Below are positions 58,900-62,440 of a stretch of DNA of 64,000 nt, one piece after another. The translations under genes were made by a program, and so were the position numbers. Positions within the stretch are counted from its first letter, which is position 1. Each line of letters opens with the position of its first letter. A model generated the notes under the pieces. It saw nothing but the letters and a program-made list of their open reading frames with translations. It was not told the origin of the DNA and did not search any database. The stretch comes from Candidatus Binatia bacterium. Its GTDB lineage: Bacteria > Desulfobacterota > Binatia > HRBIN30. The DNA lies in NCBI GenBank assembly GCA_937925685.1, contig CALAMI010000005.1:124001-188000 (forward strand), given 5' to 3'.

Positions 58900-59709
58900 T
58901 CAACCCTCATGCGGGGAAGGTACGTGGAGCAGTCGTCGTGCCACCACCACGAAACCCGTATGAGCCACCATGCGATGCTCGGGGCGCATGCTGCGGGCCT
59001 CGACATGCCAAAACCGTTGTAGCGTTTCGAAAACCTCGATCAGTCCAAAGGACGAATTCAACCGCAGGCTGTCGACGAGTTCCTTGACCTGGAGCACCGT
59101 AGGCAGGTAACTCAAGAACACTCCTCCGGGACGAAGGGACTCGGTGGCGTTTTTCAGAAGGCGCCAAGGTTCGGGTAGGTCAACGACAATACGGTCCACG
59201 TCCCGCTCTTCGATGCCGGCAAACACATCAGCAATTTTGAGTTCCCAGTGCGGCACGGCACCGAGGAAAATCTCCACGTTTCTGCGCGCCCGTGCTGCGA
59301 AGTCCTGCCGCACTTCGTACGATACCAGGCGGCCGTGGGGCGCAATGGCTTGCAGCAACGCAATCGTGAGGGCACCCGGACCAACACCAACTTCGACCAC
59401 GTGGGCCCCGGGGTAAAAGTCCCCCCAGAGCAGCATGGGGCCAATGTCCTTCGGGTAAATTGGTTGCGCTTGCCGTGGCAAATTGGGGATAAATTGGGCA
59501 AAGGTCGGGCGCACCAGAACGAAGGCCTCGCCAGCCGAGTTGTATACCGTGTGCCCTTCACGCAAGCCGATTAGGTGGTCTGCCCAGAAAAACCCGTTGC
59601 GAATGTGGACTCGCTTGCCTGGGATGAGCTGTCTCATGTATTGGCGCTGCTTGCAGTCTACGAAAAGGACGTGTTCTCCCTCCTGCAACCGGCCGGATGC
59701 ACGCTGCAT
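58900..59709 (-). CDS. trmI: tRNA (adenine-58-N1)-methyltransferase
   Basis: A 269-residue TrmI-type enzyme that makes m1A58 in the tRNA T-loop. It has the N-terminal beta domain (GEHVLFVDCKQRQYMRQL), the GCD14-like segment PIYPKDIGPMLLWGDFYPG, SAM motif I VVEVGVGPGALT (104-115) and the catalytic-site motif VVDLPEPW. The ATG at 59709 follows GGAGGGG, correcting a longer frame. It lies 26 bases downstream of the TtuA-like gene; in Thermus m1A58 and 2-thio-ribothymidine 54 stabilise the same loop. Presence alone is not proof of thermophily. Confidence 0.92.
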   Translation of the reverse strand: MQRASGRLQEGEHVLFVDCKQRQYMRQLIPGKRVHIRNGFFWADHLIGLREGHTVYNSAGEAFVLVRPTFAQFIPNLPRQAQPIYPKDIGPMLLWGDFYPGAHVVEVGVGPGALTIALLQAIAPHGRLVSYEVRQDFAARARRNVEIFLGAVPHWELKIADVFAGIEERDVDRIVVDLPEPWRLLKNATESLRPGGVFLSYLPTVLQVKELVDSLRLNSSFGLIEVFETLQRFWHVEARSMRPEHRMVAHTGFVVVARRLLHVPSPHEG

Positions 59710-59735
59710 TCTTTCCCCTCCACCAGGATGCGCGA

Positions 59736-60695
59736 CTAGGACGAGGTCTGAGCTAGCGGTCGTACCCCCTGGCGTTTCGCCGCCACTTCGTCGAGCAAGC
59801 TGCAAAAGCGACACACGGGACGATGGGATGGCAGACCACAACGGCTGCAGGTTGTTGGCGCCTCAAGATTACCGGCAAACAACTGCGAGCGCGCGCGGCG
59901 ATAGAACTCCAACACGAAGTTTTGCTTGGTTCCCGGCATTTCTGCCTCGAGGCGTTGCAAAACGTCCTTGTAAAGCAGTTGGGACGCTCCGGCCGCGTTT
60001 GGGCATTCCTCGATCACGTAGTCGATCCTTCTCAGGAAGGCGTACACCGCGGTCTCATATTCGCTGAGGCGGAAGAGAGGTTTGACCTTGCGGGCGAATT
60101 TTTCGTGCGAGGGAGCAAGAACAGGGGACTGCCTGGCAAGGTAGTTCATGTCCCACCGCAGGACATTTCCTAGAAGACGGGCTGCTTCATCGTCGAGGTT
60201 GTGCCCCGTGGCGACAACTGGGAAACCGTGCTCCATCGCTATCCGATCGAAATGATGGCGCTTTGCCGTACCGCATGCGGAGCAAGCGGGGCGCCGCGTG
60301 AGACCAACGACATCGGCGATCGCATGGCCCTCGGCGCCAAAGTCAACCTGTAGCAGGGGCAAGCCACGCTCACGGGCAAAGGCCTCAGTTTTCGTCCGCG
60401 AGAGAACGGAGTACGCCCCAATGCCAAGATTGAGATGAAGCCCGGTGGTGCGGTAGCCTAGAAGCTGAAGAACATCCCAGAGAGCCAAACTGTCTTTCCC
60501 GCCAGAGACGGCAACCAGTACGGGCTCTTCCCGGCTGAACATTCGCTCGCCGTCAATGGCGCGCTGGACTTGTCGTTGAAAGTAGAGCAGGAAGCAGTCA
60601 CGGCAGAAAGCAGTGTGGTGGGAGTGCAACTGCACTACCGCAGGGTTACGGCAGCGTTTGCACTTCGGTTTGTGACCAGGTCGAGTCGCGCTCAT
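59736..60695 (-). CDS. ttuA: tRNA-5-methyluridine 54 2-sulfurtransferase (TtuA/NcsA-like)
   Basis: A 319-residue PP-loop ATPase. The N-terminal zinc site uses Cys12, 15, 31 and 34. The PP-loop SGGKDS is at 64-69. The 4Fe-4S ligands of TtuA match Cys138 and Cys141 (CSACGTAKR) and Cys230 (EECPNAAGA). The C-terminal zinc site uses Cys282, 285, 294 and 297. TtuA adenylates U54 of the T-loop and inserts sulfur from a ubiquitin-like carrier (TtuB). A TtuB-like gene lies 1.5 kb upstream on the same strand, and trmI is 26 bases downstream. TtcA (2-thiocytidine) is less likely because both zinc fingers are present. Confidence 0.88.
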   Translation of the reverse strand: MSATRPGHKPKCKRCRNPAVVQLHSHHTAFCRDCFLLYFQRQVQRAIDGERMFSREEPVLVAVSGGKDSLALWDVLQLLGYRTTGLHLNLGIGAYSVLSRTKTEAFARERGLPLLQVDFGAEGHAIADVVGLTRRPACSACGTAKRHHFDRIAMEHGFPVVATGHNLDDEAARLLGNVLRWDMNYLARQSPVLAPSHEKFARKVKPLFRLSEYETAVYAFLRRIDYVIEECPNAAGASQLLYKDVLQRLEAEMPGTKQNFVLEFYRRARSQLFAGNLEAPTTCSRCGLPSHRPVCRFCSLLDEVAAKRQGVRPLAQTSS

Positions 60696-60735: not shown

Positions 60736-62001
60736 TCACAAGGTGAATCGCGCGAAACGGGTAAGCCCCTGGCATCCAAGCAGGGCAACGCGAACGGCGA
60801 GGACGATTTCGTCAATGGTGATTCGTCTATCGCCATTGCGGTCGCCAGCCGAACACAGTGTCTGCTGAGTGTGCTCGAGGGCGATGTTCACCAATAAAAC
60901 GATCTCGTCGACAGTCACCGAGCCATCTTCGTTACAGTCCCCGGAACAGGAAACGGCAGTTGGAGTTGGCGTGGGTAACATCACAGTCGGGGTGACGCTC
61001 GCGGTCGGCCACAGGGTAGCACGCGCCGTGGGGGTAGGTGTGGCGGTGCGCGTTGGTGTCGGAGAGGGAGAGTCAAGGGCCGGGTAGAGCACGTCGCGAC
61101 CAGCGATGTCGTCAGGGGCAAGGCTTGGATTTCGCAGACGCCGCAGCAAGTTCAGCAAGCTGGCAGGGTCTGTCTGCGAAAGTCCGCCCCACATAAGTGG
61201 CATGGCAGCGATCGGTGGGTTCCTTGGATTTGGCCAGATCTGCAGGTCGCGGAACGGATCACGCGGATCGATTACCATCACGTTCAACGGATCGCTGTCG
61301 GTATCGAGAAAGCGTCCTTCGTTTGGATGTCCTAAGCCGATTGCGTGTCCGACCTCGTGGGTGATCAATACCTGGAACGCTGCTGCAAGGATGTCTAGCG
61401 GCTGCCCGATAGCCATGAGTGCGCGCGCGGCTTCGGCAACGCGGTCGCGGTTGATCGTGATATCCGCTCCCTCGATCACGTTCCCCGGGAGAGAGAGTCC
61501 ATTGGTAAGCAAACGATCGGCATCGTACCGCCAAGTAGCGGCGGTCCAGCCGAAAAACGTTCCGGCCTCACCAACGTAGAGGTCGATTTCAAACCCCTCT
61601 CGCGGAGAACCAGGAACCACTAGGGCATCGAACACGATCTCGAATCGTAAAGCGCCGTGTTCCCATGCTCGGACGCCATCTTGGACAACGCGGCGGGAAA
61701 GCTCCTGGAGTGTTAGCACGTCGATACCGTAATGGCGGGCTACTTCCTCCGCGATGCCTAGCTGAGCCAACAAGTCAGGGGCTACGCCAACTTGGATAGC
61801 ATCGCCGAGGCTTGGCTCGTGTGCCTGACGCGGAGGTGCCGCATTCCAACGAGCAGCGAAGGCGGCAGCCTCGTCAGCCGGCAGGTCGGTGCGGTCGTTG
61901 AAGAGGCTGAACCCGACAGCCGGTGCCCGAAGGAGGAGAAGGGCGATACAGGACAGGGGTACGGTAAGCACTTGGCAGCACTGCCTCGCCTTCCGCGCCA
62001 T
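60736..62001 (-). CDS. Secreted matrixin-like metalloprotease with Thr/Pro linker and dockerin-like C-terminus
   Basis: A 421-residue protein. The ATG at 62001 begins a signal peptide with LTVPLSCIALLLLRAPAVG; the longer frame has no signal. The zinc site is HEVGHAIGLGH (His215, Glu216, His219, His225) and a Met-turn candidate is AAMPLMWGG around 270, a metzincin (M10-like) pattern. After the catalytic domain comes a ~45-residue Thr/Pro linker, then GDCNEDGSVTVDEIV and DRNGDRRITIDEIV, two calcium-type dockerin-like repeats bracketed by Cys. It would be an extracellular endopeptidase. It interrupts the ubiquitin-like and ttuA genes; a functional link is not evident. Confidence 0.83.
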   Translation of the reverse strand: MARKARQCCQVLTVPLSCIALLLLRAPAVGFSLFNDRTDLPADEAAAFAARWNAAPPRQAHEPSLGDAIQVGVAPDLLAQLGIAEEVARHYGIDVLTLQELSRRVVQDGVRAWEHGALRFEIVFDALVVPGSPREGFEIDLYVGEAGTFFGWTAATWRYDADRLLTNGLSLPGNVIEGADITINRDRVAEAARALMAIGQPLDILAAAFQVLITHEVGHAIGLGHPNEGRFLDTDSDPLNVMVIDPRDPFRDLQIWPNPRNPPIAAMPLMWGGLSQTDPASLLNLLRRLRNPSLAPDDIAGRDVLYPALDSPSPTPTRTATPTPTARATLWPTASVTPTVMLPTPTPTAVSCSGDCNEDGSVTVDEIVLLVNIALEHTQQTLCSAGDRNGDRRITIDEIVLAVRVALLGCQGLTRFARFTL

Positions 62002-62221
62002 GTTCGTAAATTTACCTGCCTCTTCGACCAAAGGCAAAACACAAAAGTTGATTGGCGCGGTTGCTAGGACATGAGCGGTCATGACCGTGCGCCGGAGTCG
62101 TTGCCAGATGGCACGCATCGGCCGAGAAACCGCCGAAGTCTTAGGCTTTCCGGGCAATTCGTTCCACCCTGTTCCGGCCTGGCGGGGGCTTGCAAGTGTC
62201 AACCGGTGAGGGAGTCCGCGG

Positions 62222-62440
62222 TCAGCACAGCGGGTTCCGCTTCCGTGCGCCGCCAGAAATCACCCGACGAATCTCCACCGTATCACTATCGTTCACCACG
62301 TCTTCCGTGGTGAGCATTTCGTCGTCGCGGATCACGAGCACGGTTCCTGGCAGCAGCTGCAGTTCGCGTAATAAATCCCCCACGCGACAGCCCCCACGAA
62401 GTTCTACTTCCTCGCGGCTTGGAAGGAGCACCACACGCAC
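62222..62440 (-). CDS. Ubiquitin-like sulfur-carrier protein (TtuB/MoaD/ThiS family) with C-terminal extension
   Basis: A 72-residue beta-grasp protein. GTG at 62440 gives VRVVLLPSREEVEL, with AGG upstream; a TTG at 62479 adds 13 residues. The fold is seen in the sequence: VGDLLRELQLLPGTVLVIRDDEML, landmark residues 20-43, then TVEIRRVISGG. The diglycine at 63-64 is followed by eight more residues (ARKRNPLC) before the TGA. Family members normally end at Gly-Gly, which is adenylated and thiocarboxylated. Here a protease would be needed to expose it, as for QbsE-type precursors. Gene context with ttuA suggests that it supplies sulfur for tRNA. Confidence 0.75.
   Translation of the reverse strand: MRVVLLPSREEVELRGGCRVGDLLRELQLLPGTVLVIRDDEMLTTEDVVNDSDTVEIRRVISGGARKRNPLC

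Follow-up and report, generated by a model that had tools for sequence, protein, structure and literature searches.

Several small carrier proteins are made with residues beyond a Gly-Gly and are trimmed afterwards. In the QbsE/QbsD and HcyS/HcyD systems, one or two residues follow the Gly-Gly of the sulfur carrier and are removed by a JAMM protease; these carriers serve natural-product or methionine synthesis, unlike the tRNA thiolation considered here. Ubiquitin of eukaryotes and of Caldiarchaeum is likewise reported to be a precursor trimmed by a protease (Rpn11-type in Caldiarchaeum), and it tags proteins, whereas the carrier described below is one of sulfur delivery. In other systems one frame encodes the carrier and, after it, its client enzyme, with a cut after the Gly-Gly: cleavage of Mycobacterium tuberculosis MoaX at this site (Gly82) is required, by a protease that the report did not then identify (PMC4326299), and DRJAMM cuts the Deinococcus MoaD-MoaE protein DR2607, leaving a C-terminal Gly (PMC8832034). 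Both of these proteins belong to molybdopterin synthesis and have MoaE as partner, whereas our system is one of tRNA thiolation and has TtuA. The Mec+ protease frees cysteine from CysO (PMC3227635), and, according to a 2006 proposal of Iyer and colleagues, the ubiquitin-like domain of phage proteins is set free at its last glycine by a JAB domain (PMC1779556). The closest described relative of our carrier is TtuB of the Thermus thermophilus m5s2U54 pathway, with which it shares the fold, the nearest sequence in the PDB, the partner TtuA and a nearby trmI. Thermus cells are reported to need tRNA thiolation to survive at high temperature (PMC6313347), and those without JAMM are described as retaining roughly half of the thiouridine and forming aberrant conjugates of TtuB (PMC3980101); because Thermus TtuB ends at Gly-Gly, this phenotype ties JAMM to the conjugates and not to trimming. 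The principle of precursor trimming is already known and its application to TtuB would be what is new; neither a tailed TtuB nor a TtuB-TtuA fusion was described in the titles and abstract openings listed by our searches of the open-licence literature.

The gene of interest lies in a window of 64,000 nucleotides, the whole stretch of DNA that was analysed, where the following features were assigned.

62222..62440, (-) strand: ttuB-like gene for a ubiquitin-like sulfur carrier of 72 aa, from a GTG start to a TGA stop (Pfam, profile and predicted fold)
62249..62254, (-) strand: diglycine codons GGC GGC, after which cleavage would be expected (sequence; SGG conserved among the loci compared)
62225..62248, (-) strand: tail ARKRNPLC, eight residues, varying within the genus (sequence; genus comparison)
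62224-62222, (-) strand: stop codon TGA of the window ttuB (sequence)
60736..62202, (-) strand: metzincin-like protein with a dockerin/EF-hand-like C-terminus, open frame with provisional start (Pfam matches all under cut-off, motif by eye, synteny)
59736..60695, (-) strand: ttuA-like tRNA 2-sulfurtransferase (NF049949 at E 4.5e-75, under cut-off; PDB TtuA at E 1.7e-84)
58900..59841, (-) strand: trmI-like tRNA methyltransferase, open frame with provisional start (PF08704 and PF14801 over cut-off; synteny)

The original prediction, a beta-grasp carrier of the TtuB/MoaD/ThiS kind with eight residues beyond its diglycine, was borne out on both counts. The frame at 62440-62222(-) ends VISGG-ARKRNPLC, followed by TGA, and a free C-terminal Gly-Gly would arise from this product only by trimming. 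Its GTG start agrees with those of relatives, most of which have ATG or GTG at the equivalent site. The Pfam family ThiS (PF02597) matched at 25.1 bits, over its cut-off of 22.5, and the SAMP2 equivalog NF041919 at 24.1 bits (E 3.9e-05), under its curated cut-off of 70. When a profile built from 23 relatives was compared with the PDB, Thermus TtuB ranked first (E 2e-15), with the next family at 3e-06 and a protein described as unknown (1ryj), SAMP2 and PF1061 in the ranks below. In the predicted model the mean pLDDT per ten residues was 94-97 over residues 1-60 and about 53 over residues 61-72, at the tail end, and the nearest structures were the TtuB chains of 5ztb and 5gha. The window gene is thus a TtuB-type carrier as judged from sequence and modelled fold, and by analogy with Thermus it would most likely form a thiocarboxylate and transfer sulfur to U54 of tRNA. 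It differs from the Thermus protein at one end: the 5ztb chain stops (residue 74 of 74) at profile position 64, which is the second Gly, whereas the window protein runs on for eight more residues.

The metzincin-like, TtuA-like and TrmI-like frames follow ttuB in this order on the same strand, identically in both sister genomes, so that the metzincin-like frame separates ttuB from ttuA in all three genomes of the genus. The TtuA-like protein scored 252.5 bits against the NF049949 TtuA equivalog, short of the curated cut-off of 450, and the nearest solved proteins are TtuA; in alignment with Thermus TtuA the PP-loop, the CxxC motif, the Lys after it and the third Cys all match. The position of trmI near ttuB and ttuA fits the pathway, as m1A58 made by TrmI is reported to favour 2-thiolation of U54 in Thermus (PMC6313347). 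The frame at 60736-62202 encodes a secreted-looking protein with a metzincin-like HEVGHAIGLGH motif, a Pro/Thr-rich linker and two EF-hand/dockerin-like repeats.

Alignment of orthologues, which had been suggested as a check, indicated that the tail is real and that its sequence is not kept, whatever the tail does. The sister proteins, with which the window carrier shares 74 and 77% identity and an intact SGG, end in TADRIEKSA (9 residues) and AA (2 residues). Even for a draft in 51 contigs, judged here by its assembled sequence, it is scarcely credible that an assembly or sequencing error took out a stop codon after the Gly-Gly: both sister genomes also run past the Gly-Gly, into other tails and other stops, as do many of the wider relatives described below. 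The original prediction had also considered a sulfur-carrying role for the last residue, in which the C-terminal Cys would bear a persulfide in place of the thiocarboxylate. The final residue is indeed Cys, yet the sister tails contain none, the window tail is the only one to end in Cys among the 54 short TtuB tails that we collected, and conservation of the diglycine would then be needless; we regard this role as highly improbable.

To place the tail in a wider context, we collected TtuB relatives from 23 of 39 related genomes, from 47 of 148 genomes of the class and from the best 80 of 94 named-contig loci. The 110 pooled loci were reduced to 95 by removing 15 with identical carrier core and next 40 bases. 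SGG was present in 94 of these 95 distinct loci, which are related and not independent, the exception being L147 with SRG. What follows the diglycine varied widely: nothing in 36 loci (L147 included), 1-18 unconserved residues in 54, and a whole TtuA in frame in five. In the part of the tree sampled, the expectation of a Gly-Gly terminus as the family norm therefore does not hold, 36 of the 95 loci stopping there. The tail is real and is no oddity of one species, being one point in a range that extends from no tail to fusion with TtuA, with a similar range for MoaD and CysO. The persistence of SGG in front of a stretch that varies from 0 to 18 residues, or to a whole TtuA, favours a precursor. 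We infer that the window TtuB is cut after its Gly-Gly, most likely by JAMM, and that the freed carrier then passes sulfur to TtuA, a reading suggested by sequence comparison and by the analogous systems, to which we assign a probability of about 0.7. Were the tail instead to stay on, with TtuB inactive or otherwise used and its gene heading for loss, the varying tail length in the genus (8, 9 and 2 residues) and the displacement of ttuA from the side of ttuB would be readily understood. Decay of this kind is nonetheless improbable given the identity of the carrier body among the sister genomes with its SGG intact, the 84 and 86% identity of TtuA to the sister proteins and the near-universal SGG of the wider collection. 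One record in the collection deserves mention: a contig titled as a Klebsiella pneumoniae MAG (L144) carries a TtuB of the window's class, and its title looks wrong.

As far as the frames indicate, tails commonly stem from overlap with ttuA. Of the 90 non-fused loci, 38 have a ttuB frame that overlaps the start of ttuA, and all 38 are tailed, versus 16 of the 52 others, a group that includes seven loci whose ttuA start was not located by the script, L167 among them probably overlapping. In 26 of the 38 overlapping loci the tail has two residues, commonly by way of ATGA or GTGA. The genus of the window is an exception, in which ttuA has moved away and the tail remains. The first residue after the diglycine is small (A, G, S or T) in 45 of 59 cases versus 53 of 135 later tail residues (p 2e-6), and Pro is never found directly after it (0/59 versus 10/135 later tail residues; p 0.03). 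Both features fit proteolysis, and both could be caused by kinship or by the base sequence of the overlap. The diglycine codons contain GGAGG at 16 of the 38 overlapping loci and at 10 of the remaining 52 (Fisher p 0.033, uncorrected for kinship), suggesting that in part of the tree these codons may double as the ribosome site (Shine-Dalgarno) of ttuA. The diglycine codons of the window, GGCGGC, contain no GGAGG.

The extreme of the range is formed by the five fused loci (L155, L156, L160, L163 and L169), whose records name Nitriliruptoria, Nitriliruptoraceae, Egibacter and, in one case, Actinobacteria. A profile built from the fused loci matched 47 of the 66 genomes searched in the class of G170, which is Nitriliruptoria-like by record titles. 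In 38 of the 66 genomes, counted by eye, one match spanned TtuB and TtuA with no second match at E<=1e-10; five of these 38 show one stop inside the match, and the four of them that were re-read (all but G250) proved to run open as far as model position 389-392. Of the remaining matched genomes, three carry ttuB and ttuA as neighbouring genes and six gave partial or split matches. We read 30 fusion loci (L327-L356): the TtuB part is absent from L346, and the junction is present in the other 29, each of which keeps SGG (a script read 28 of them, and L344 was read by eye). Among the 28 measured linkers, which span 4-8 aa up to the first zinc-finger Cys, none contains an in-frame ATG, GTG or TTG. 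Judging from the codons, restart of translation at the junction may occur in places, with a CTG in the L156 linker and a GTG two codons past the first Cys in L155 as candidates. An internal Gly-Gly kept at all 29 junctions read, in genomes that are related, is difficult to account for unless it comes to form a terminus. The fusion structure predicted from five sequences had a mean pLDDT of 61, with values <50 at junction residues 61-66, which is too poor to judge whether an uncut Gly-Gly could reach the active site.

The enzymes that the proposed maturation would need are encoded elsewhere in the genome. Neither a JAMM nor an E1 was found inside the 64-kb window, as had been stated; one PF14464 match and two PF00899 matches lie on other contigs of the same genome. 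The genome search that had been recommended thus yielded one JAMM (G000:C10:340312-340665(-)), with its catalytic motif of Glu and HSH-x10-D intact, and two E1-like proteins, a rhodanese-E1 (C16) that resembles Uba4, ThiF and MoeB, and another (C15) that has CysO and a PLP enzyme of the cysteine-synthase kind as neighbours. With a profile of 13 JAMMs from these groups of genomes, 2kks and 2kcq ranked first in the PDB, followed by Pyrococcus JAMM1, which was solved with SAMP2. The idea of a protease-trimmed precursor was in this way strengthened by the JAMM motif, the rhodanese-E1 and the tails of 54 of the 95 loci, with the cleavage itself still a matter of deduction. Two side observations concern the surroundings of E1-like proteins: at L058 5612-7935(+) an E1-like protein clusters with a CysO-like carrier that ends GG-IE and with a PLP enzyme of the cysteine-synthase kind, the frame of which overlaps the carrier end, and at L057 5307-5543(-) the rhodanese-E1 is directly followed by a small carrier-like protein whose C-terminus, PPLAG, has one Gly in place of Gly-Gly (by eye).

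JAMM was detected in 134 of 148 genomes of the class, in 90 of its 95 good genomes and in all five fusion genomes searched out of 38; beyond the class, the search covered 50 of the 80 named-contig loci, mostly outside the class already searched. Co-occurrence of JAMM and tail was considered as a discriminator and failed, JAMM being nearly universal in these groups: it is present in 45 of the 53 genomes that have a tail or a fusion versus 26 of 27 untailed ones, where the tailed G172 and the untailed G166 were counted as positive on matches under the family cut-off. In the untailed G193, JAMM was found by Pfam and not by the sensitive profile. The catalytic motif expression gave no match in four of 60 JAMM loci; the JAMM of one of these, G173, showed the motif in a further reading. 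At G172:C4:23010-23287 the JAMM match is split over two adjoining frames, the gene being broken or misassembled.

The exceptions bear on the identity of the protease. In the eight tailed genomes without JAMM, the sensitive JAMM profile also gave nothing better than E 0.06, and two of these assemblies are rated 99% (G020) and 96% (G014) complete. Incomplete assemblies explain part of the absences, and another protease may act in these genomes. The tail of the window protein would then be trimmed as proposed, with a general protease or carboxypeptidase in the place of JAMM. Such an enzyme would suit tails that have no common sequence, and the MoaX study left the responsible protease unidentified (PMC4326299). 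Against it, an exact cut after Gly-Gly inside TtuB-TtuA and MoaD-MoaE needs an endoprotease that recognizes the carrier, the Deinococcus JAMM is reported to make such a cut (PMC8832034), and gaps in the gene inventory are to be expected in incomplete assemblies, given the frequency of JAMM in the good genomes of the class. We therefore consider this alternative unlikely, if far from negligible, and retain JAMM as the favoured enzyme. In the loci examined, JAMM does not adjoin ttuB and sits near Moco genes or a PLP enzyme of the cysteine-synthase kind, for which reason it may serve MoaD and CysO only; in the window genome it is near neither. The ORF calls around JAMM are crude, with overlapping frames, and only Pfam-confirmed proteins were used as neighbours, namely MoaE in one Binatia locus, a molybdopterin-binding protein in another and a PLP enzyme of this kind in two Nitriliruptoria-like loci.

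The 39 related genomes were also searched for MoaD, CysO and ThiS, and 30 of 37, 29 of 50 and 30 of 38 matches, respectively, were read; for CysO, 30 of the 50 matches had loci, and L262, which the script misaligned, was removed. Six of the 30 MoaD proteins (L220-L249) end at GG, 16 have tails of 1-10 residues and eight are fused to MoaE, the MoaE part being confirmed by Pfam in 8/8. Among the 29 CysO proteins nine end at GG and 20 have tails of 1-12 residues. ThiS stands apart, with 27 of 30 proteins ending at GGG and the other three (L283, L284 and L286, all of one genus) at GGG-C. The window genome follows the same pattern, its MoaD ending SGG-CDGEDC, its CysO AGG-IE and its ThiS GGG. Several carriers of the class are thus habitually tailed, which speaks for a processing enzyme that they share more than for a peculiarity of TtuB.

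We propose that the carrier, which would serve 2-thiolation of tRNA, most likely at U54, is synthesized as a precursor and that it is cut after Gly64 by an endoprotease, for which the single JAMM metalloprotease of the genome is the most likely candidate. The freed glycine would be adenylated and thiocarboxylated through an E1-like enzyme, probably the rhodanese-E1, and the thiocarboxylated carrier would hand its sulfur to TtuA. The tail would have no sequence of its own to conserve, being in many relatives the ttuB frame running into the ttuA start; in the genus of the window, another gene would have separated ttuA, leaving the tail to drift to 2, 8 and 9 residues, and in the Nitriliruptoria-like genomes both frames would have merged, making TtuB-TtuA a single precursor. 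In more general terms, we lean slightly towards the view that in several bacterial phyla the carrier of tRNA thiolation is frequently made in precursor form, in the extreme as a TtuB-TtuA polyprotein that is conserved across an actinobacterial class, and that one JAMM matures TtuB, MoaD and CysO alike.

The overlapping genes, in which the carrier frame enters the next start, suggest how such precursors originated and offer a plausible route to the fusions. If the proposed maturation is true, the fusions would yield carrier and enzyme in equal numbers, and they are a clean natural test of the precursor reading. For annotation, tailed small carriers should not count as errors. Sulfur delivery would be protease-dependent, a general bacterial counterpart of the processing of ubiquitin precursors, and tRNA thiolation would stand under the control of a deubiquitinase-like protease, which would give bacteria that lack ubiquitin one more reason to keep JAMM.
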